NCBI GenBank assembly: GCA_945861615.1
Contig: CAMAVH010000020.1
Span: forward strand, 1-33,374
Length of the DNA stretch: 33,374 bases
Source of the DNA: Rhizobium sp. Q54
Lineage (GTDB): Bacteria; Pseudomonadota; Alphaproteobacteria; SMXQ01
Direction of reading: 5' to 3'
Positions 3,789-27,761 of this stretch are shown in pieces. Under the pieces are notes generated by a model. The model was not told the origin of the DNA and did not search any database. It was given only the letters and a program-made list of their open reading frames with translations. Made by a program: the position numbers and the translations under genes. Numbering within the stretch: position 1 is the first letter of the stretch; the number at the start of each line of letters is the position of its first letter.

Positions 3789-4122
3789 GCTTCCTGCTCC
3801 TCTCTGACGGCGGCCGCGTCGCGGCGCCGATACAAACGCAATCTACGCCAGTGTCGCCATTGTCTTCGGCAAAGCATCCTTTAGGGATGGCAATGATCCG
3901 CGAGTGTACAAAGCCGCATGGCCAAACAAAACCCACGGCCAGAGTCCCCGCTCGTCTCGGGCCCGATTCGCGAACAATGTCCCCGGACTAGTATGTCGCG
4001 CATTATCCACCCGGACCGTAGGGCGGACAATCATTGGGTGCCCAGCGTTTCTCCGCGCCATAGCCTGTTCCGTCCGACGGAATTTTTTCGCGTCTCGGTT
4101 GCAAGTTTACACAGAATAACTC
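3789..4122. other. Intergenic leader of the 2OG oxygenase gene
   Basis: These 334 bases lie upstream of the oxygenase start and behind the VOC gene stop. No convincing coding frame is present. The only structure I can point to is a short inverted repeat, CATCC/GGATG, at 3875-3889 with a 5-base centre. It could be an operator but has no second copy. The promoter of the 2718-3788 gene must lie here; no clear -35/-10 pair was found. Confidence 0.4.
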
Positions 4123-4530
4123 TTATTCCGTATCGGCCAGCGGATCGTTCGTCAGATCGATCAGCTCGAGCACGTTGCCGTCGGGATCGTGGAAATAGGC
4201 GCTGCGGCCTTGAAACGTCCCCCGGGCGCGATTTTCCTCGAGAAAAACCCGTACGCCGTGCTCGGCCAGCGTCTTCAGCGCCGCATCGAAGGCGCTGCCT
4301 TGCACCAGAAAGGCCGTGTGAATCTCATGACGATTCGGCGGATTGGGATCGATGGGTTTTTCGGAATGGGTCAGCACGAACAGGTCGTCGCCGCAGCGCA
4401 AGAAACACATATGTGGACTGCGCCGCAGCTTCTTAAGACCCAGCAGGCCGGTGTAGAAGGACTCGGCATGGTCGATATCCGTCACAGGAATGGTGAAATG
4501 CACGAGTTTCTGCAGTTCGATCACGGCCAT
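4123..4530 (-). CDS. VOC (glyoxalase/extradiol-dioxygenase fold) protein
   Basis: A 135-residue single-subunit VOC protein with two beta-alpha-beta-beta-beta modules. The first starts with LVHFTIPVTDIDHAESFYTG, the second with EIHTAFLVQG and ends DPDGNVLELIDL. His in VHFTI, His in EIHTAF and Glu in LELIDL sit at the usual metal-ligand positions, so a divalent metal site seems intact. Family members are lyases, isomerases, extradiol dioxygenases or antibiotic-binding proteins; the role here is unknown. The ATG at 4530 follows GGAGG at seven bases. A longer open frame to 4740 would add 70 residues without family resemblance and is rejected. The gene is divergent from the binding protein at 4809, sharing a 278-base promoter region. 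Confidence 0.88.
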   Translation of the reverse strand: MAVIELQKLVHFTIPVTDIDHAESFYTGLLGLKKLRRSPHMCFLRCGDDLFVLTHSEKPIDPNPPNRHEIHTAFLVQGSAFDAALKTLAEHGVRVFLEENRARGTFQGRSAYFHDPDGNVLELIDLTNDPLADTE

Positions 4531-4808
4531 GCCCACGCCTCCGGTCCTGTGATGAGCCTTGCCGGCCCATTCCTTCGATAGCGAATGTATCACTGCCGCC
4601 ATAGCGGCGATCTTATACCTTTCGGCCCGATTCTTATAAGCGCGTTTCAAGATGCGGCACGAAGACCGGGCGGCGAACTTCGTCTTGGCATATGTTCTGC
4701 CTAATTTAAAAAATTCCCGTTTTGCTTCACAGTGACCCACGGGAGATTCATAAGCGGATAACCGCGCGACAGGGCATCGCGCACCGCCCGCATAAAAGGA
4801 GACGTCAC

Positions 4809-5876
4809 GTGATCGTTAAGACACCCGCCGTTCGTTCCAGCGCCACGCGTTGCTTGCTTGCCCTGCCACTCGCCTTCGCCTGCACCGTGGCTGCCATGCC
4901 GGCACAAGCCCAGCAGTCGGTCGAGGATTTCTACAAAGGCAAACAGATGCGTTTCGTCATCCGTTCGGCCGGCGGCGGCGGCTACGATCTCTACTCGCGC
5001 CTGATCGCCGCGCATATCGTGCGCCACATTCCCGGCAATCCCACCATCGTGCCCCAGAATATGCCGGGCGCCGGCGGCATCATCGCCGCCAATTACATGG
5101 GCGAGATCGCGCCGAAAGACGGCACGCATCTCACCATGATCAGCCAAGCCCTCGCCATGGACCAGTCGCTCGGCCTGACGCCGACCTTCAAGGCGGACCT
5201 GCGCACGTTCGCTTGGATCGGCAACCTCGGCGATTCGAACATCCTGACCTACACCTATCACACGTCGCCGACCAAGACGATGGAAGACGCCAAGAAGCGC
5301 GAAACCACCATGGGTGCGACCGGTGCCGGCAGCGCCACGACTTGGCTGCCGATCGTCTACAACCGTTTGCTCGGCACCCAATTCAAGCTGATCCAGGGCT
5401 ACAAGAGCGGCTCCGCCGTCAAGCTCGCCATGGAGCGTGGAGAGGTCGAAGGCTATGCCGCCAACCCGTGGGCCGCGCTGGTCTCCGCATCGCCCGATCT
5501 CATCAAGAACAAGCAGCTCAATATCCTCACGCAGGTCGGCCTCGACAAGGAAGACGATCTGCCGAACGTGCCGTTGCTCAGCGAACTGGCGACCGATAAG
5601 GACAGCAAGGATATCCTGACCTGGATTTCGACGGCGATGGCCGTCGGCCGCCCGATCGGCACGACGCCGGGCGTACCTGCGGACCGCGTCGCCGCACTGC
5701 GCAAGGCCTTCAACGACACGGTGAAGGACCCCGTGTTCCTCGCCGCTGCCGCGAAGGTCGATGCCGAAATCAAGCCGATCGATGGCGTGAAGCTGCAAGC
5801 CATGATCGACAGCGTGATGAGTTCGCCGCAGTCCTTGAAAGACAAAGTCAAAGCGATAATGCCCGATCGCGAATAA
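4809..5876 (+). CDS. TctC/Bug-type periplasmic binding protein
   Basis: Product of 355 residues starting at a GTG, seven bases behind AAGGAG (4796-4801). An upstream in-frame ATG at 4722 would place a long non-hydrophobic arm before the signal peptide and is rejected. The signal peptide runs to about AQA in MPAQAQQ, followed by DFYKGKQMRFVI, GGGYDLYSRL, HIPGNPTIVPQNMPGAGG, LAMERGEVEGYA and AVGRPIGTTPGVPADRVAAL. These are the Bug-family marks. It is a close paralogue of the protein at 7314-8384. The segments MGEIAPKDGTH, MDQSLGLTPTFKADLR and HTSPTKTMEDAKKRET are identical in both. The two copies flank a two-cupin gene. No TctA or TctB subunit lies nearby. The ligand is unknown and probably an organic anion. 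Confidence 0.92.
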   Translation: MIVKTPAVRSSATRCLLALPLAFACTVAAMPAQAQQSVEDFYKGKQMRFVIRSAGGGGYDLYSRLIAAHIVRHIPGNPTIVPQNMPGAGGIIAANYMGEIAPKDGTHLTMISQALAMDQSLGLTPTFKADLRTFAWIGNLGDSNILTYTYHTSPTKTMEDAKKRETTMGATGAGSATTWLPIVYNRLLGTQFKLIQGYKSGSAVKLAMERGEVEGYAANPWAALVSASPDLIKNKQLNILTQVGLDKEDDLPNVPLLSELATDKDSKDILTWISTAMAVGRPIGTTPGVPADRVAALRKAFNDTVKDPVFLAAAAKVDAEIKPIDGVKLQAMIDSVMSSPQSLKDKVKAIMPDRE

Positions 5877-7313: not shown

Positions 7314-8384
7314 GTGATCGCCAAAACCCCCGTCGCCAAAACCGCCATCGCTAAAGCTGGGCGCCTGTCCCTGCTCGCCGCCCTCGCCATCGTCGCGGGA
7401 ACCTCGGCCGTTCAGGCTCAGCAGTCCGCCGAGGACTTCTACAAGGGCAAGCAGATGAAATTCATCATCCGCTCCGCCCCCGGTGGCGGCTTCGACACCT
7501 ATTCGCGCCTGCTCGCGCGCCATATCACCAAGCATATTCCCGGCCAGCCCACGATGACGCCGCAGAACATGCCGGGCGCCGGCGGCATCACGTCCGCGAA
7601 TTACATGGGCGAAATCGCGCCGAAGGACGGCACGCATATGACCATGATCGGCCAAGCCCTGCCGATGGACCAGTCGCTCGGCCTGACCCCGACCTTCAAG
7701 GCCGATCTGCGCAGCTTCGGCTGGATCGGCAATATCGGCGATTCCAACGTGCTGACCTACGTCTGGCACACCTCGCCGACCAAGACGATGGAAGACGCGA
7801 AAAAGCGCGAGACGACCCTCGGCGCGACCGGCTCGGGCGACACCTCGTCGTGGATTCCCTCCGTCTACAACAAGGTGATAGGCACAAAATTCAAGACCAT
7901 CGACGGCTACAAGAGCGGCAGCGAGGTCAAACTCGCCATGGAACGCGGCGAAGTCGAGGGCTTCGGCAGCAATCCCTACTCGGCGCTGATGTCGGCATCG
8001 CCCCAACTGATGCGCGACAAGCAGATTTCCATCCTGGTGCAGGTCGGCGTGCGCAAGGAGAAGGATCTGCCCAACGTGCCGCTGCTCAGCGACTTCGGCA
8101 CGACTGCCGAGGATAAAGCCGTGCTCGGCTTCATCTCCAAAGCGCTGGCCGTTGGCCGTCCCATCGGCACCACGCCGGGCGTGCCGGCCGAGCGCCTCGC
8201 CGCCCTACGCAAGGCCTTCGATCAAACCCTGCTGGACAAGGATTTCTTGTCGGACGCAAAAAAAATCGGCGCCGAGATCAACCCGATGAACGGTGAGACG
8301 TTGCAGAGCCTGATCGGCGAGGTCATGGGCGCGCCGCAGGACATCAAGGACAAGGTCAAGTCGGTGCTGCCCAGCCGCAAGTAA
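7314..8384 (+). CDS. TctC/Bug-type periplasmic binding protein
   Basis: Product of 356 residues from a GTG at 7314, seven bases after AAGGAG at 7301-7306. The signal peptide ends near VQAQQS. The mature part shows DFYKGKQMKFIIRS, GGGFDTYSRLLARH, HIPGQPTMTPQNMPGAGG, LAMERGEVEGFG and AVGRPIGTTPGVPAERL. It is a tandem paralogue of the 4809 protein: both the start context (AAGGAG, seven bases, GTG ATC) and the downstream hairpin are shared. A 204-base leader separates it from the cupin gene and contains an ATGCA/TGCAT palindrome, so it may have its own promoter. The ligand and membrane partner are unknown. The two paralogues may differ in ligand range. Confidence 0.92.
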   Translation: MIAKTPVAKTAIAKAGRLSLLAALAIVAGTSAVQAQQSAEDFYKGKQMKFIIRSAPGGGFDTYSRLLARHITKHIPGQPTMTPQNMPGAGGITSANYMGEIAPKDGTHMTMIGQALPMDQSLGLTPTFKADLRSFGWIGNIGDSNVLTYVWHTSPTKTMEDAKKRETTLGATGSGDTSSWIPSVYNKVIGTKFKTIDGYKSGSEVKLAMERGEVEGFGSNPYSALMSASPQLMRDKQISILVQVGVRKEKDLPNVPLLSDFGTTAEDKAVLGFISKALAVGRPIGTTPGVPAERLAALRKAFDQTLLDKDFLSDAKKIGAEINPMNGETLQSLIGEVMGAPQDIKDKVKSVLPSRK

Positions 8385-8516: not shown

Positions 8517-8996
8517 ATGCAAAACACCCACAACACCCTGTCCGAGAACGTTCGCGCGCAGGCGATCGAGCTTCTGAACAAGCATCTCGCCGCCGCCATC
8601 GATCTGCATGGCCAGATTAAGCAAGCCCATTGGAACGTGCGCGGCCCCGGTTTCATCGCCGTTCATGAACTGTTCGACCGGGTCTCCACAGAGGTCGAGA
8701 ACTATTCCGATATGCTGGCCGAACGGGCCGGGGCGCTCGGCGGCACGGCGCAAGGCACCATCCAAATTGCCGCCCAGCGCTCCTATCTGGTGCCCTACGC
8801 CCTCGGCATCGCCGACACCAAAAAGCACCTCTTCGCCGTTGCAGAAGCGCTCGCCGCCTTCGGGGAAGCCGCGCGCGAGGCGATCACTCTGGCCACCGAT
8901 TTCGGCGATCTCGACAGCGCAGACCTGTTCACCGAAATGTCGCGCGGCATCGATCAGCAATTATGGCTGGTCGAATCCAACCTCTCGCCGGACTAG
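8517..8996 (+). CDS. dps: Dps family DNA-binding ferritin-like protein
   Basis: A 159-residue four-helix protein of the Dps family. The inter-subunit ferroxidase motif is intact: KQAHWNVRGPGFIAVHELF supplies the first His pair region and ENYSDMLAERAGALGG supplies the Asp and Glu ligands. Dps forms a 12-subunit shell that oxidises Fe(II) with hydrogen peroxide and stores the iron, so it protects DNA and proteins from oxidative damage. The N-terminus (MQNTHNTLSENVRAQ) is short and not lysine-rich, so strong DNA binding is not obvious. The ATG at 8517 follows GGAG at six bases; an ATG at 8406 inside the preceding hairpin is in frame but has no ribosome site. In this oxygenase-rich setting the protein could handle peroxide stress. 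Confidence 0.93.
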   Translation: MQNTHNTLSENVRAQAIELLNKHLAAAIDLHGQIKQAHWNVRGPGFIAVHELFDRVSTEVENYSDMLAERAGALGGTAQGTIQIAAQRSYLVPYALGIADTKKHLFAVAEALAAFGEAAREAITLATDFGDLDSADLFTEMSRGIDQQLWLVESNLSPD

Positions 8997-9096
8997 CCGC
9001 CATCCCCGGCGCTTTACCCTCCGCGGCAAGACCGCTACTTTGCCCTCATCGAGGGCGTTGACAGAACGCTCGCCTCAGCCGCGGATCCGACATCTC

Positions 9097-10125
9097 ATGG
9101 CGCGCCGCTTTGCCTGGGCTTCCCTGCCCGAAAGCCAATTGCTGCAATTGCGCATCAAGGACCTCAGAGTCACGATTGATGGCACCTGGCTTGAGGGCTG
9201 CCTGCACGAACTGCACGACGAATTGGCCGCGCGCGGCCTCGGACGGTTCAAGCCCCATGCCTGGATCTCCGACGAATGGTTCAGCCCCGACACCACGCCA
9301 GGCATCGCCATCCCGTTTTACCTGGCCCATCCGCGCCTCATGCGTCTCGAGCGCAAGATGATCATCGACGTCGAAGGCGGCACTTACGCCGAATGCATGC
9401 AAATCCTGCGACACGAAGCCGGTCATGCGATTCGCTCCGCCTATCAGCTGCATCGCCGGCGGCAGTGGCAAAAAACCTTCGGGCCCGCGTCCAAACGCTA
9501 TCCGAACTACTACCGGCCCAATCCGGCGAGCAAGAATTACGTCGAGCACTTGCGCCTGTGGTACGCGCAAAGCCATCCCGACGAGGATTTCGCCGAGACT
9601 TTCGCCGTCTGGCTCAAGCCGCGGTCCGGCTGGCGCAAGCGATATGCCGGCTGGGGAGCCCTTAAGAAGCTCGAATATGTCGAGGCGCTCATGGCCGAAG
9701 TGGCCGAAGAGCGGCCCAAGCTGCGCGAGAGAACGCGCGTCGACCCGGCCAGTTCGATCACGCGCACACTGGCGGAACATTACGAGACGAAGCAGGCGAC
9801 CTATCTGCTCGATCCCTCCAAGGCCTACGACAAGGATTTGCTGCGGCTGTTCTCCAATTCGCCGCGTCATACCCGTGCCAAGGCGGCATCCAGCTTCATC
9901 CGCGAACATCGCGCCGATATCCGGCCCGTGGTCTCGAAATGGACCGGGGAATATCAGTTAACCCTTGATTCGATATTGGACGATATGATCCTGCGGTGCC
10001 GGGAGATGAATTTGCGCGCGCCCGGCTCGCAGAAGAAGCTCTTGCACGATCTGACCGTTCTTGTGACGGCCCAGACGGTGCACGCGCTCTATAGGCCGTC
10101 ACGGAGGCAATGGTACGCATTATGA
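9097..10125 (+). CDS. Putative zinc-binding metallopeptidase
   Basis: A 342-residue cytoplasmic protein without signal peptide. A zincin motif HEAGH lies at residues 106-110, in LRHEAGHAIRSAY, and a probable third zinc ligand Glu167 in the segment DEDFAETFAVWL, 57 residues on, as in gluzincin-like peptidases. It resembles proteins annotated as putative zinc-binding metallopeptidase, which are not well characterised. The C-terminal half (about 210-342) is helical and basic. The start is the ATG at 9097; its ribosome site is weak. Its stop TGA overlaps the ATG of the next gene (ATGA at 10122-10125), so it is probably co-translated with an ATP-grasp ligase. This suggests a paired function in making and breaking or trimming a peptide bond (inference). 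Confidence 0.82.
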   Translation: MARRFAWASLPESQLLQLRIKDLRVTIDGTWLEGCLHELHDELAARGLGRFKPHAWISDEWFSPDTTPGIAIPFYLAHPRLMRLERKMIIDVEGGTYAECMQILRHEAGHAIRSAYQLHRRRQWQKTFGPASKRYPNYYRPNPASKNYVEHLRLWYAQSHPDEDFAETFAVWLKPRSGWRKRYAGWGALKKLEYVEALMAEVAEERPKLRERTRVDPASSITRTLAEHYETKQATYLLDPSKAYDKDLLRLFSNSPRHTRAKAASSFIREHRADIRPVVSKWTGEYQLTLDSILDDMILRCREMNLRAPGSQKKLLHDLTVLVTAQTVHALYRPSRRQWYAL

Positions 10126-11147
10126 AGCGGCTCCGCGTCCTGGTGCTGATGCATCCGGACCTCGTCCCCCCGGACTCGATCAAAGGTTACAGCGAGCAGG
10201 AAAGCTACGTCTGGAAGACCGAATACGACGTCGTCAGCACGTTGCGCAAAGCCGGGCACGAGGTCCGACCGCTCGGCGTTCAAGAAGAACTGAAGCCGAT
10301 ACGCGACGCTATCGAAGATTGGCAGCCCCACGCAGTGTTCAACCTGCTGGAGGAATTCCACGGCGACACGGCTTACGATCAGAACGTCGCCAGTTATCTC
10401 GAACTGCTACGCATTCCCTACACCGGCTGTAATCCGCGCGGCATGATGCTGGCGCGCGGCAAGGACCTGTCGAAGAAGCTACTCAGCTATCATCGCATCC
10501 CGGCGCCGAATTTCGCCGTGTTCAAGAAAGGCCACGCGATCAGGCGGCCGGCCAGGCTCAAAATGCCTTTGATCGTTAAAAGCGTCAGCAACGACGCGTC
10601 GATCGGCATCGCCCAAGCCTCCGTCGTCGATAGCGACGAGAAGCTCGCAGAACGCGTCACCTTCATCCATGAGCGCATCAAGACAGACGCGATCGCCGAG
10701 GAATATATCGAAGGGCGCGAGCTCTACGTCGGCGTGATGGGGAACCAGCGACTCAAGGTGATGCCGATCTGGGAATTGCGCTTCGACAATCTGGGCAAGG
10801 GCCAGCGGGCAATCGCCACCGAACGCGTCAAGCACGATCCCGATTATCAGGAGAGACGCCTGATCATGCAGGGGCCGGCGGAGGATTTGTCGCCCGAGCT
10901 GCGCGCCGCCATTATCCGCTCGGCCAAACGGATTTGCCGCATTTTGGAGCTCGACGGCTATGCGCGCATCGACTACCGCCTATCGGCCGAGGGAATCCCC
11001 TACTTCCTCGAAGCCAATCCCAATCCGGAGATCGCCGAAAGCCAGGAATTCGCCCAATCGGCGCTACATGACGGCGTCGGCTACGCCGACCTGCTCCAGC
11101 AATTGCTGAACTTGGCGATCAAGCGCCAAGCCGCCAAGGATGCCTGA
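10122..11147 (+). CDS. ATP-grasp ligase (D-alanine-D-alanine ligase-like)
   Basis: Product of 341 residues with the three ATP-grasp parts. The N-terminal part has LVLMHPDLVPP and the HGDTAYDQNVASYLELL stretch. The ATP-binding lid shows PLIVKSVSNDASIGIAQAS and AEEYIEGRELYVGVMG. The magnesium-binding end is YARIDYRLSAEGIPYFLEAN followed by PNPEIA. D-Ala-D-Ala ligases and relatives form an amide between a carboxylate, activated as acylphosphate, and an amine. The substrate here is unknown; the gene is not in a cell-wall cluster, so a cell-wall role is unlikely. The start is taken as the ATG at 10122 overlapping the preceding stop. An in-frame ATG at 10110 lies only two bases after GGAGG and is less convincing. 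The enzyme is cytoplasmic. Confidence 0.85.
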   Translation: MKRLRVLVLMHPDLVPPDSIKGYSEQESYVWKTEYDVVSTLRKAGHEVRPLGVQEELKPIRDAIEDWQPHAVFNLLEEFHGDTAYDQNVASYLELLRIPYTGCNPRGMMLARGKDLSKKLLSYHRIPAPNFAVFKKGHAIRRPARLKMPLIVKSVSNDASIGIAQASVVDSDEKLAERVTFIHERIKTDAIAEEYIEGRELYVGVMGNQRLKVMPIWELRFDNLGKGQRAIATERVKHDPDYQERRLIMQGPAEDLSPELRAAIIRSAKRICRILELDGYARIDYRLSAEGIPYFLEANPNPEIAESQEFAQSALHDGVGYADLLQQLLNLAIKRQAAKDA

Positions 11148-11191: not shown

Positions 11192-12214
11192 TCAACGCGA
11201 CAGCAGATCGCTTAGCTTACCCGACAGCGCATCCGGTGTGCGCATCAGGTCAACGACCATCTGCTCAAGCTCTTTGCCAGTCCGCGTATTGATTTCCAGA
11301 TCCAGGCTTTTGGCCTCCTTTTGAAAACCACTGTCCTTCATCGTGGCGTCGAACGCCCGCCGTAATGCGGCGACGCGGTCGGCCGGCACCTCGGGCGGCG
11401 CGACGACCGGACGCCCCAGCTCGACGCTGGTCGAGAACAAGCTGAGCAACTGCTTCTGCTCCTCGTTCTTGACGTACTTATAAATCGTCGGCGCATTTAC
11501 ATCGGGAACCGGATCGCGCTCCATGTTGAACAGCACATGCAGCCTGCCCTCCTCGATCCAGCCCGGCCGCGACTTCTCGACCGCCGTGATCGTCTGGCAA
11601 ATGCCCTGCACCTCTCCGCGCTCCATGGCGAGGATTACGTCGTTGGCGCTTTTATAACCATCGACCAGCTTGAATTTCATGCCGAGCATGTTCTTCAGCA
11701 ACGTCGGCGTCATGCTGACCGCCGTGCCGGCGCCGGCGCCGCCGACGATCAGATCTTTGGCCAGAAGGTCGTCGCCGGTCTTGATGCCGGATGAATCGAG
11801 CGCCACGCAGACCCGATTGGTCAGTTCCGGACTGCCGAGCCAGTTGAATTTGACCGGATCGAACTTCACGCTCGCATGTTTCGCCAGCGCTTGATTGGGC
11901 AGATTGCGCCCGATCATGCCGATAACCGAACCATCGCGCGCCGCGACGTTGAACAGATGGTTCGTCGCCGTGATCTGACCGCCGCCCGGCATGTTTTGCG
12001 TGATGAAGGTCGGCGCGCCGGGAATATGCCGGCCCATGTAGCGCGTGATCATTCGCGCCCAGATGTCGTAATCGGTGCCGGCCGCCGCCGACACGATCAT
12101 GCGAATCTGCTTGTCCTTGTAAAACTGCTCGACCGATTGCGCCTGCGCCGCAGCGCAGCCCAACCCAGCAAGAACGCCGCCCGCCGCAAGCAGGCGGGAA
12201 AGTTTAATCTTCAT
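11192..12214 (-). CDS. TctC/Bug-type periplasmic binding protein
   Basis: Product of 340 residues. The signal peptide MKIKLSRLLAAGGVLAGLG ends near AQAQS, followed by EQFYKDKQIRMIVS, GTDYDIWARM, HIPGAPTFITQNMPGGGQ, LAMERGEVQGICQT and LGRPVVAPPEVPADRVAALR. The usual GGGYD glycine turn is here AGTDYD, so the binding-site loop differs from the other Bug proteins in the window. I use the ATG at 12214; a GTG at 12223 is in frame but has no spacing for a ribosome site. It follows a VOC gene on the same strand (68 bases apart) and then a flavoprotein dehydrogenase. Together these may form a three-gene unit for uptake and oxidation of a carboxylate. The ligand is unknown. Confidence 0.92.
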   Translation of the reverse strand: MKIKLSRLLAAGGVLAGLGCAAAQAQSVEQFYKDKQIRMIVSAAAGTDYDIWARMITRYMGRHIPGAPTFITQNMPGGGQITATNHLFNVAARDGSVIGMIGRNLPNQALAKHASVKFDPVKFNWLGSPELTNRVCVALDSSGIKTGDDLLAKDLIVGGAGAGTAVSMTPTLLKNMLGMKFKLVDGYKSANDVILAMERGEVQGICQTITAVEKSRPGWIEEGRLHVLFNMERDPVPDVNAPTIYKYVKNEEQKQLLSLFSTSVELGRPVVAPPEVPADRVAALRRAFDATMKDSGFQKEAKSLDLEINTRTGKELEQMVVDLMRTPDALSGKLSDLLSR

Positions 12215-12282
12215 GTCAGCCACCCTGTTTTACCGCCAGGCTTTCAGACCCAGCCTTTGCGTTTCCTCATATGTGCGGCGCC

Positions 12283-16784: not shown

Positions 16785-17804
16785 ATGAAGTCCTACGTCC
16801 GTACCGGCGCAGCCGTGCTTGCGCTTATCGCCTCCGGCGCGCTGACCGCGCCGAATGCCGATGCCCAAACGCCTTACTACCAGGGCAAGACCGTCCGCCT
16901 GGTCGTCGGCTTCTCGCCAGGCGGCGGCTACGATACCTACGCCCGCTTGCTGTCGCGCCATTTTGGCGACCACATTCCCGGCAAGCCGAGCGTTATCGTC
17001 GAAAACATGCCGGGCGCCGGCTCGCTCACCGCCGTGCGCTGGCTCGACGGCCCGGCGCCGAAAGACGGCACCGCGATCACCGCCTACAATCCGGGCTTGA
17101 TCACGCAGTCCCTCCTCGATCCCAAGAAAATGAATAACCTGAAATTCGTCGACTTCGCCTGGGTCGGCAACATCGCGCGCGATCAGCGCGTTTGCTATGT
17201 CTGGCACACCAAGGCGGTGAAGGACTTCGACGAATTCCGGAAAAAAAGTTGGGTCTTCGGCACCACCGGTGTCGGCGCCGCCAACTGGATCAATCAGCGC
17301 ACGCTGCAGCGCGTCTTCAATATCGACCTGAAGATCATTACGGGATTCCCTGGCTCGCCGGAACAGCGCCTTGCCATCGAGCGCGGCGAATTGGACGGCG
17401 ATTGCGGCTCCTGGACCTCAATCCCCGAAGACCATCGCGCAAACAAGCTCGTCCGCCCCGTGGTCAAGTTGTCGCGGCAGTTGCCGCCGGACGCGCCGAA
17501 AGACGTGCCGTGGGCCAACGACCTCGCGGCGAACGACGAGGATCGCGCTGTGCTCAACGTGATCAACGGAGCCGGCGAAATCGGCCGTCCTTACATGATG
17601 TCGAAGCAGGTTCCGGCGGCCCAGGTCGCCATTCTGCGTAAAGCCTTCGACGACACCATGAAGGACAAAGGCTTCCTCGCCGACGCCGACAAATTGAAGC
17701 TTCCGGTCGATCCGATGACCGCTGACGAGGTCGTGGATCTCCTCAAGACGATCTACAACGCCCCGCCAGCGGCGCTCAAGCGCGCCAAAGCCGTCACGGA
17801 ATAA
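16785..17804 (+). CDS. TctC/Bug-type periplasmic binding protein
   Basis: Product of 339 residues. The signal peptide (MKSYVRTGAAVLALIASGAL) is cleaved near ADAQT. The mature part has YYQGKTVRLVVGFSPGGGYD, YARLLSRHFGDHIPG, VENMPGAGS, LAIERGELDGDCGSW and IGRPYMMSKQVPAAQVAILR. It keeps the Bug fold marks but is the most different in the linker region, where it has two cysteines (RVCYVWHT and GDCGSW). The ATG follows GGGAG by ten bases, at the long end of normal spacing. It is a single gene between a 268-base leader and a strong terminator, next to a hybrid kinase. Some Bug proteins work as extracytoplasmic sensors for kinases, but this cytosolic kinase makes that unlikely here. The ligand is unknown. 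Confidence 0.92.
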   Translation: MKSYVRTGAAVLALIASGALTAPNADAQTPYYQGKTVRLVVGFSPGGGYDTYARLLSRHFGDHIPGKPSVIVENMPGAGSLTAVRWLDGPAPKDGTAITAYNPGLITQSLLDPKKMNNLKFVDFAWVGNIARDQRVCYVWHTKAVKDFDEFRKKSWVFGTTGVGAANWINQRTLQRVFNIDLKIITGFPGSPEQRLAIERGELDGDCGSWTSIPEDHRANKLVRPVVKLSRQLPPDAPKDVPWANDLAANDEDRAVLNVINGAGEIGRPYMMSKQVPAAQVAILRKAFDDTMKDKGFLADADKLKLPVDPMTADEVVDLLKTIYNAPPAALKRAKAVTE

Positions 17805-25422: not shown

Positions 25423-26490
25423 CTATTTCTTGGTCTCGTCCTTCATTTTGAACTCGCCCTGCTTGATGGAAAGGCGCGCCGCTGTGATCGCTTCCGGCGA
25501 CGAGGAATAGACGTCCTTCAAGATCGCCTCGATCTGCTCGCCCGACTTCGGATTGTTGATTTCAAGGCGGCGTTTATTTGCGTCGGCGAGAAACACTGGG
25601 TCCTTCACCATGGCGTCGAACGCGCGGCGCACTTCAGCGACGCGCGCCGCCGGCACGCCCGGCGGCATCACGTAAGGCCGGCCCATCGACTGGTTGGAGA
25701 ACACGATCTTCATCGCGGCGCGCTCCCTGTCGTTTCGGGCCAAATCCATCACCAACGGCACGTCGCCGGGAATGTCGTCGTTCTTTTCCAGACCGACCTG
25801 CATCAACAGTTTGACCTGCCCGGTTTCGAGCCATTTCGCCGCGCTGATCTTGAAAGTGGACCAGGACGCGCCGACGCGGCCTTCCACTTCGCCGCGTTCC
25901 ATGGCGAGATTCTGGTTGCCGTCCGAGCCGTAGCAGCAGACCTGCTGAAACTGCGTATCGAGCAAGCTGTTCAGCACGCGCGCGCCCAGTCCGCCTCGCG
26001 CGCCCGCCATCGCTACGATGGTCGGGCGACGCTGCGTGTCCTCCCAGGACTTGATGCCGGTGGTGTGCCACACCGCCGCCACGCCAATCTCGGTGTTCAA
26101 GCTACCGATCCAGTTGAATTCCAGCGGATCCTTGTACGGCGCTTTAGAGTCCTCGGCGTATAGCAGCGGCTCGACGGCGACGTTGCGGTCGATCGCGCCC
26201 ATAGCCGTGCCGTCCCGCTTCGCCGCCTGATACAGATAGGTCATCGCCCGCATGCTGGCGGCGCCGGGCATATTGCGTGCGATGATGTTGGGATTTCCGG
26301 GAATGAAGCGGCTGATATGCTCGGCCATCAGTCGGGCATAAATGTCGTACCCCGCGCCCGCCTCATACCCGACATACATATCGACGGTTTTTCCGGCGAA
26401 AAAATCCGCCTGCTGCGCCGATGCGCCGGACGCAATGACCGTGCTGAAAACGGATGCGACGATGGCCGCCGCGAACTTACGCTGTCCCAT
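25423..26490 (-). CDS. TctC/Bug-type periplasmic binding protein
   Basis: Product of 355 residues. The signal peptide ends near ASAQQ (MGQRKFAAAIVASVFSTVIA precedes). Bug marks are DFFAGKTVDMYVGYEAGAGY, HISRFIPGNPNIIARNMPGA, LAMERGEVEGRV and MGRPYVMPPGVPAARVAEVR. A double cysteine lies in FQQVCCYGSDGNQ, unusual in this set. The start ATG 26490 follows GGGGAGG at six bases; longer frames to 26547 run into the Rieske gene end and are rejected. It stands between two Rieske oxygenase copies with gaps of 17 and 27 bases, so the three form one operon. This placement strongly links the Bug ligand to the oxygenase substrate (inference). The membrane partner is absent from the window. Confidence 0.92.
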   Translation of the reverse strand: MGQRKFAAAIVASVFSTVIASGASAQQADFFAGKTVDMYVGYEAGAGYDIYARLMAEHISRFIPGNPNIIARNMPGAASMRAMTYLYQAAKRDGTAMGAIDRNVAVEPLLYAEDSKAPYKDPLEFNWIGSLNTEIGVAAVWHTTGIKSWEDTQRRPTIVAMAGARGGLGARVLNSLLDTQFQQVCCYGSDGNQNLAMERGEVEGRVGASWSTFKISAAKWLETGQVKLLMQVGLEKNDDIPGDVPLVMDLARNDRERAAMKIVFSNQSMGRPYVMPPGVPAARVAEVRRAFDAMVKDPVFLADANKRRLEINNPKSGEQIEAILKDVYSSSPEAITAARLSIKQGEFKMKDETKK

Positions 26491-26507
26491 GATGTTCCTC
26501 CCCATTT

Positions 26508-27761
26508 TTATTCGGCCGCAGCCTTGGCAGCCAGCAAGCGCCGGCATTGGCTTGGGCCATCTTCATTGTCCGCAATCGGCCCTTCGAAACAGACGAAGTC
26601 CGATAGGTAGTTTTCGTCGCGCATCAAGCCGGGCGCTTCTTTGCCGTCCTGCATTTGCTGAATGGCTTTCAGCAAGCTGCGGAACATCGAGGCGATGACG
26701 ATGTCAGTCGAGCCGAGATTCTCCGTCGTACGGTCGCGGATTATGCCCTGGGTCTCGATGGCGAAGGCGTCCTGCGCCGGGAAATATTCGCCCATGCCGC
26801 AGAAACTGCCGTCCGGTCCCTTCATCTCGACGCGATCCTGCAGATAGCGGTTTTCCGCGCGACGCACATGGCGCATGTCCGCCGCAACATTCTCGTTACG
26901 GAATTTCCGCAACGCGTCTTTGTCGACGGCCTGCGCATGCTTGTAGATGAACTCGAAATAGTAATGACTGCCGTCGTCCGCCGGCACGTACCAGCGCCCC
27001 TGGTATCCCGAGCCGGCGTTGCCCGTCGTCGGCGTGGCGCCGCATGGATAAACATAGTTGTTGATGCGCAGGTACTTGCCGTTCGAGCCATGATGCAGCG
27101 CGTAGATGCGCATGCCGAAGGTCGTCGGCTCGGTCGTGACGTCCGGCGGCGCGGTGCCGCGAAGCTTATTGACGTCGTTGCCCGAACGGATCGAGCGCGT
27201 GCCGACGGCGCGGCGATGCAAATAAGTGGTGTGCGCCGGATCGATGACGCTTTCCAGTCCCTGCAGCCAATTGCAGGTCTGTAGGGTCCGGGAGGTATGG
27301 CGATTGGCTTCCGGACCGACGAGGAACTGGAAATCCGGAATCATCGGCGGCTCGCCGTTGCCCATGTAGGTCCAGATCGCGCCGCCCTTCTCCTGCACGG
27401 GGTAGGACTTCATCGGCACCGTATCGCAGAACTTGCGCTTCTCGGCCGGTTGGTCGATGCACTTGCCGTTCACGTCGAACAGCCAGCCGTGATAGAGGCA
27501 GCGAATGCCGCCGTCCTCGATCCGGCCGTAGGACAAGTCTGTGCCGCGATGCGGACAGTTGCGCTGGATCAGGCCAAGACGGTCCTTGTCGTCGCGGAAC
27601 AGCACCAGATCTTCGCTCATGATGCGGATCGGCAAGGGATCGCCGCCCGGCGGAATTTCTTCCGTCGCAGCGATCGGCTGCCAATAACTGCGCAGAAATT
27701 CGCCGCACGGCGTACCGGGGCCGGTGCGCGTCAACAGATCGTTTTGCGCCTGGGTCAGCAT
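26508..27761 (-). CDS. Rieske non-haem iron oxygenase, large subunit (phthalate 4,5-dioxygenase / LigXa-like), copy A
   Basis: Product of 417 residues, paralogous to the protein at 24139 over its whole length. Ligands stand at the same residue numbers: Cys69/His71 and Cys88/His91 for the [2Fe-2S] cluster, and Asp174, His177 and His182 (VIDPAHTTYLHRR) for the iron. The segments EFLRSYWQPIAA and IRIMSEDLVLFRDDKDRLGL are identical in both, while the catalytic half differs more, so the two may take different substrates. The ATG at 27761 follows GAGAGG by eight bases. It lies 50 bases behind the aminotransferase gene and just ahead of the Bug gene. Electron partners are a ferredoxin or reductase; only the ferredoxin-like gene at 19871 is in the window. 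Confidence 0.92.
   Translation of the reverse strand: MLTQAQNDLLTRTGPGTPCGEFLRSYWQPIAATEEIPPGGDPLPIRIMSEDLVLFRDDKDRLGLIQRNCPHRGTDLSYGRIEDGGIRCLYHGWLFDVNGKCIDQPAEKRKFCDTVPMKSYPVQEKGGAIWTYMGNGEPPMIPDFQFLVGPEANRHTSRTLQTCNWLQGLESVIDPAHTTYLHRRAVGTRSIRSGNDVNKLRGTAPPDVTTEPTTFGMRIYALHHGSNGKYLRINNYVYPCGATPTTGNAGSGYQGRWYVPADDGSHYYFEFIYKHAQAVDKDALRKFRNENVAADMRHVRRAENRYLQDRVEMKGPDGSFCGMGEYFPAQDAFAIETQGIIRDRTTENLGSTDIVIASMFRSLLKAIQQMQDGKEAPGLMRDENYLSDFVCFEGPIADNEDGPSQCRRLLAAKAAAE

Follow-up and report, generated by a model that had tools for sequence, protein, structure and literature searches.

Bacteria have few ligase/peptidase pairs by which amide-linked groups are attached and taken off again, and for most of these the substrate has yet to be named. 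Glutathionylspermidine synthetase/amidase, a one-protein fusion that includes a papain-like amidase, both forms and hydrolyses one amide bond. The aspartic peptidase RimB removes the glutamates that the ATP-grasp ligase RimK adds to the ribosomal protein RpsF (PMC12239564), and in the Anbu operon a peptidase is encoded beside a putative peptide ligase (PMC5666114, PMC6376114). We failed to find a description of the pair reported here, or of its family, in the literature searched; the 2009 amidoligase review of Iyer et al., which lay outside this search, may already mention the neighbourhood, and the claim of novelty is thus modest.

The window analyzed was a stretch of DNA of 33,374 nucleotides. 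The pair is encoded there by two overlapping genes, with a doubtful promoter in front of them:

9097..10125, + strand: predicted zinc peptidase of a Peptidase_Mx-related family, 342 aa; ATG at 9097, stop codon at 10123-10125
10122..11147, + strand: predicted Ddl-superfamily ATP-grasp carboxylate-amine ligase, 341 aa; ATG at 10122, stop codon at 11145-11147
10122..10125, + strand: ATGA stop/start overlap of the peptidase and ligase genes, 4 shared bases
9013..9041, + strand: possible weak promoter TTTACC-N17-TACTTT, read by eye and uncertain

Both ORFs were confirmed as the initial annotation had described them, that is, as a peptidase with the HEAGH motif (residues 106–110 of the window peptidase, P0001) and a Ddl-like ligase overlapping it by ATGA. 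An alternative ATG for the ligase at 10110, present in the ORF list, is less likely as the start, since the alignments with relatives begin at 10122. Both proteins lack a hydrophobic N-terminus (best 19-residue Kyte–Doolittle means of 0.76 and 0.93), and no export-type hydrophobic segment was seen in either, so a cytosolic location, suggested at the outset for the peptidase, is reasonable for both. A Dps/ferritin-like gene (PF00210) is indeed located closely upstream of the pair (8517-8996), and a link with stress had been proposed from it; at the 80 other Alphaproteobacterial loci, Dps was never found next to the pair, and the stress link was rejected.

At least six genes encoding TctC-like (tripartite tricarboxylate receptor-type) substrate-binding proteins, named by eye, stand in the window among oxygenase and ring-hydroxylating-dioxygenase-like genes:

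1364-2695, − strand: TctC-like gene
4722-5876, + strand: TctC-like gene
7314-8384, + strand: TctC-like gene
11192-12223, − strand: TctC-like gene
16785-17804, + strand: TctC-like gene
25423-26547, − strand: TctC-like gene

A search of a genus-mate genome (G001) gave dozens of matches to this gene type. The pair region is non-syntenic in that genome, the matches being scattered and mostly to TctC-type genes.

The linkage of the two genes was analyzed across genomes. When 84,980 species genomes were scanned with the alignment of the peptidase, 160 relatives were confirmed and 80 of them kept. The ligase gene was directly downstream of the peptidase gene in 80/80 of these Alphaproteobacterial relatives (Bradyrhizobium, Xanthobacteraceae, Dongia, Reyranellaceae, Desertibaculum, and others); many of them are Bradyrhizobium, so the 80 loci do not equal 80 independent cases. 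A 4-base overlap was present in 74 pairs, including two with ATGA in the sequence though the alignment begins one residue in, while the other six had gaps of 24–136 bp. Peptidase and ligase occurred in the identical 5 of 385 whole genomes sampled (E ≤ 1e-5 and 1e-40), and their close orthologues in the identical 9 of 398 genomes of a second sample, always adjacent; these rates are lower bounds, as genome searches score few candidates per genome. Thus the co-occurrence count proposed in the initial annotation found the genes together and not mostly apart. The next ligase relatives in the second sample drop to about 1e-32 and 31% identity. Neither gene was detected in ten genomes of the window's own order, one of them from the same genus; therefore, the distribution of the pair is patchy.

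A wider search, with an alignment that took in a distant pair (L140), detected the peptidase in 15 of 340 genomes (13 genera) of another proteobacterial class, probably Gammaproteobacteria, a label that rests on inference throughout. The ligase follows the peptidase in all 14 testable Gammaproteobacterial genomes, with 42–51% (peptidase) and 44–53% (ligase) identity to the window proteins, and the ATGA or GTGA overlap is kept in 11 of these 14 pairs; the contig with the fifteenth peptidase (34% identity) ends 144 bases past the gene. The pairing is thus real and far above chance, and its restriction to Alphaproteobacteria was rejected by this search. The distant pair, on IMG/VR contig L140, sits after phage-tail-like genes and has identities of 36% (peptidase) and 39% (ligase), the two genes being 62 bp apart. 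With the queries used, no match to the peptidase was found in the plasmid and phage collections. The distance matrices of the two proteins agree (r = 0.87; 0/2000 permutations as high), as expected if both genes travel together. A 6.3 kb contig of a Gammaproteobacteria MAG (L037) carries a pair with 65/72% identity, as close as the Alphaproteobacterial ones; it is possibly misbinned or the result of a recent transfer.

Flanking genes vary between the pair loci. No third gene common beyond close relatives was found around the Alphaproteobacterial pairs or around 27 loci of both classes, and genes for transporters, for amino-acid-forming enzymes, or for other tailoring steps were not conserved beside the pair. 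Gene calls in both classes revealed no conserved cell-wall genes there either. A short conserved peptide gene, which the initial annotation had suggested looking for, was not evident: in the 600 bp flanking each of 81 Alphaproteobacterial pairs on both sides, no short ORF was common beyond closely related loci. Neither protein matched PADLOC models (anti-phage defence) or PHROGs. The pair seems to be a self-contained two-gene unit in scattered Alpha- and Gammaproteobacteria. In 67 of 81 loci, against 1.6 expected, a promoter-like pattern, TTGTTG-N17-CAYCAT, was located about 29–50 bp ahead of the peptidase start codon, the pattern having been drawn up after the sequences were seen, one match (L064) being a truncated-contig artefact, which leaves about 66, and most of the others coming from Bradyrhizobium. 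The pattern was absent from the window, where a consensus promoter scan also found none.

The window peptidase matched the Pfam family Peptidase_Mx (PF15887) with 30.8 bits at a cut-off of 27, over profile positions 90–165 of 236; hhalign gave a probability of 94.8 over 80 columns. The family was matched by 35/35 members of alignment A3 over the catalytic core, while canonical Peptidase_Mx proteins score about 330–370 bits versus 30–36 for the pair-type members. Residues H106, E107, H110, E163, D164, and E167 were invariant in 26 diverse relatives (alignment A7). Because the HExxH and ED..E motifs are invariant, zinc is likely bound by H106, H110, and a glutamate (E163 or E167). No relative of the peptidase with a solved structure was found; AlphaFold models of the pair were poor (mean pLDDT of 69 and 54), and a structure search gave no matches.

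Residues from approximately 205 to 342 form an extension common to paired members. Three phage relatives (L141, L142, and L143) match the peptidase only up to about residue 226 or earlier. One of them, L142, is a 207-aa Peptidase_Mx core; in the other two, found on contigs with terminase- and portal-like genes, a HAD-like N-terminus (recognized by eye from the DxDGT motif) is joined to this core:

L141, 4539-5708: HAD-like/Peptidase_Mx fusion
L143, 4383-5672: HAD-like/Peptidase_Mx fusion

No ligase match was found in the contig DNA examined for the three relatives, that of L143 ending with the peptidase. Two phage relatives thus have the core with no ligase match, and the core can therefore work alone. 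As the unpaired phage matches stop at about residue 226 and have no ligase match, the alignments suggest that the C-terminal region of the peptidase goes with pairing.

The ligase scored 87.7 bits with Dala_Dala_lig_C of Pfam, 127.5 bits with the NCBIfam Ddl models (below the cut-off of 243), and 16.4 bits with the RimK Pfam model (below the cut-off of 21). VanA was among its structural matches. In the phylogenetic tree, the pair ligases formed their own clade (100/100), apart from DdlA/DdlB, which agrees with the initial proposal that they do not group with true cell-wall ligases. Their nearer relatives in it were uncharacterised ATP-grasp proteins from rhizobial plasmids rather than DdlA or DdlB, a relationship less sure than the separation from Ddl, as several long branches meet in the tree. 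A rhizobial paralogue of the ligase occurs in G495/G638. The nearest non-pair ligases (about 30% identity) are encoded, in two records (L094 and L095), near lysine 2,3-aminomutase (KamA), accompanied by PanD or by the diaminopropionate genes SbnA/ornithine cyclodeaminase; these loci are possible unstudied peptide clusters.

The housekeeping Ddl of the window genome was encoded between murB and ftsQ on another contig (L012), in a dcw cluster carrying murC, murB, ddl, ftsQ, ftsA, ftsZ, and lpxC, which bears out the initial remark that cell-wall genes are not found at the pair site. In two carriers of the pair (G650 and G368; L110 and L111), the best match to the DdlB query was just 35–36% identical, so these genomes may use a different type of Ddl for the cell wall.

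The window ligase keeps K153, R282, D284, E297, and N299. The ATP and Mg residues, K144, R255, D257, E270, and N272 in the numbering of E. coli DdlB, were each kept in 47/47 pair ligases. The D-Ala contacts of the E. coli enzyme were mostly replaced: E15 was kept in 1/47, S150 in 2/47, G276 in 4/47, and S281 in 0/47. Where Ddl has its acceptor contacts G276, S281, and L282, the aligned residues of the pair ligases were mostly acidic or Gln; the alignment is uncertain in the omega loop (K215/Y216). Since the ATP/Mg residues are kept and the D-Ala contacts replaced, the ligase should still be able to form both an acyl phosphate and an amide, though with a substrate other than that of Ddl. A role as a cell-wall D-Ala-D-Ala ligase was rejected on the basis of the sub-cut-off Ddl score, the true Ddl in the dcw cluster, the separate clade, and the replaced contacts.

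The most likely reading, to which we give a probability of roughly 0.4, is a translationally coupled writer/eraser pair adding and removing an amide-linked group on a common cellular substrate. The ATP-grasp ligase would activate a carboxylate as an acyl phosphate and join it to an amine; the co-translated zinc peptidase would act on that bond or on the same substrate, most likely to take the added group off again or to trim the substrate. The C-terminal extension of the peptidase may be the part that holds the ligase or the substrate. The genes are strictly adjacent and translationally coupled and lack other partners, which suggests that both proteins act on one substrate already in the cell. 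As the pair is not accompanied by a precursor peptide, transporter, or tailoring enzyme, this substrate would have to be present in most cells, such as a protein tail, a common peptide, or an amine. We infer both activities, their opposition, and the substrate; the observations counted in favour of the writer/eraser reading are the linkage, the identical presence, ATGA in two classes, the matched distances, and the lack of a third gene. The promoter-like element 5' of the peptidase, the intact zinc and ATP/Mg residues, and the RimK/RimB and Anbu precedents, together with a canonical Peptidase_Mx gene in an Anbu-type neighbourhood, were also counted for it. Against it, the peptidase could act before the ligase instead of cutting the bond that the ligase makes, and the two phage relatives with a core but no ligase match were counted on this side too. 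The modification system proposed in the initial annotation thus persists as the best guess, with the conserved coupled pair and the non-cell-wall ligase established and its activities and substrate still conjectural.

A more specific version of the writer/eraser reading, tentative and less probable than the general one, is reversible conjugation, in which a ligase descended from Ddl, its acceptor site remodelled and mostly acidic, would attach a group by an amide bond to a common cellular protein or amine and the zinc peptidase would reverse this; the system would be compact, consisting of two genes that often have a promoter of their own and occur at many unrelated sites in two proteobacterial classes.

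Next in order, and rather doubtful in our estimate, comes synthesis of a small molecule or dipeptide. Here the ligase would join amino acids or amines into an amide-linked metabolite, with the peptidase releasing a precursor or else maturing or recycling the product. The surroundings of the nearest non-pair ligases look biosynthetic, and the mostly acidic or Gln acceptor positions could suit a cationic acceptor. However, none of the genes expected of such a pathway (transporter, amino-acid-forming enzyme, tailoring gene) is conserved beside the pair, and a zinc peptidase of a broad family would be an odd sole partner in it.

Sequential processing, in which the peptidase would expose a new end of a protein or peptide and the ligase would then add a residue there, stands third and is unlikely. 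The peptidase gene is first in every pair and is translated first, and translational coupling suits a complex; however, gene order alone does not fix the order of reactions, and no substrate protein is linked to the pair.

Maturation of a RiPP of the graspetide type, with the ligase cross-linking a ribosomal peptide and the peptidase removing its leader, is highly improbable, even though zincin-type peptidases occur in some graspetide loci (PMC8939145). The short-ORF search around the 81 Alphaproteobacterial pairs, the lack of a conserved transporter, and the assignment of the ligase to the Ddl superfamily all speak against it. A change of cell-wall precursors, as by the VanA ligase and the VanX dipeptidase, is the least probable of all: a Ddl-superfamily ligase is paired with a zinc peptidase and has VanA among its structural matches, but the Ddl substrate contacts, the clade, and the neighbouring genes are not those of cell-wall synthesis, the true Ddl is in the dcw cluster, and VanX belongs to a peptidase family other than that of the pair peptidase.

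Gain-of-function and deletion tests should be simple, since the pair is compact and cleanly linked and occurs in Bradyrhizobium and Afipia strains that can be cultured, while most of their relatives lack it.

Among known systems, RimK/RimB (and RloC/RloA) of Pseudomonas resemble the pair in that an ATP-grasp ligase is encoded with a peptidase; however, they combine a ligase of the RimK family with an aspartic (retropepsin-like) peptidase, whereas the pair combines a Ddl-superfamily ligase with a HExxH zinc peptidase and consists of two genes only. Glutathionylspermidine synthetase/amidase shares with the proposed reading the making and breaking of one amide bond, and differs in being a single fusion with a papain-like amidase. 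DdlA/DdlB and VanA belong to the same superfamily by sequence, and their ATP and Mg residues are kept in the pair ligase, whereas the latter has replaced substrate contacts, forms a separate clade, and scores far below the Ddl cut-offs. Canonical Peptidase_Mx (PF15887) shares with the pair peptidase the HExxH and (S/A)HPxED(F/W)AET motifs; the pair peptidase matches the catalytic core only and has a different C-terminal domain, and it lacks a match to PF10005, the N-terminal zinc ribbon of canonical L131.

The Anbu operon (CP-ATP-grasp, Alpha-E, transglutaminase, and Anbu) is alike in the peptidase adjoining a putative peptide ligase, and unlike in its circularly permuted ATP-grasp, versus the Ddl type of the pair, and its larger number of genes. 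Alpha-E was on another contig or approximately 100 kb or more away in pair carriers G000, G103, G174, G347, G368, and G650. In one genome (G476), a canonical Peptidase_Mx gene adjoins proteasome-type (Anbu-like) and circularly permuted ATP-grasp genes, and Alpha-E lies about 2.4 kb farther downstream. Just before its HAD-like fusion, phage contig L143 has a small ORF (3976-4542) that is Ntn-hydrolase-like (weak HslV match, below the cut-off) and recalls this Anbu/Peptidase_Mx neighbourhood. Two branches of one peptidase family therefore accompany two ATP-grasp types, the canonical branch in a single genome, and the substrate of the pair, once found, could help explain canonical Peptidase_Mx beside the Anbu/ATP-grasp/Alpha-E cluster.
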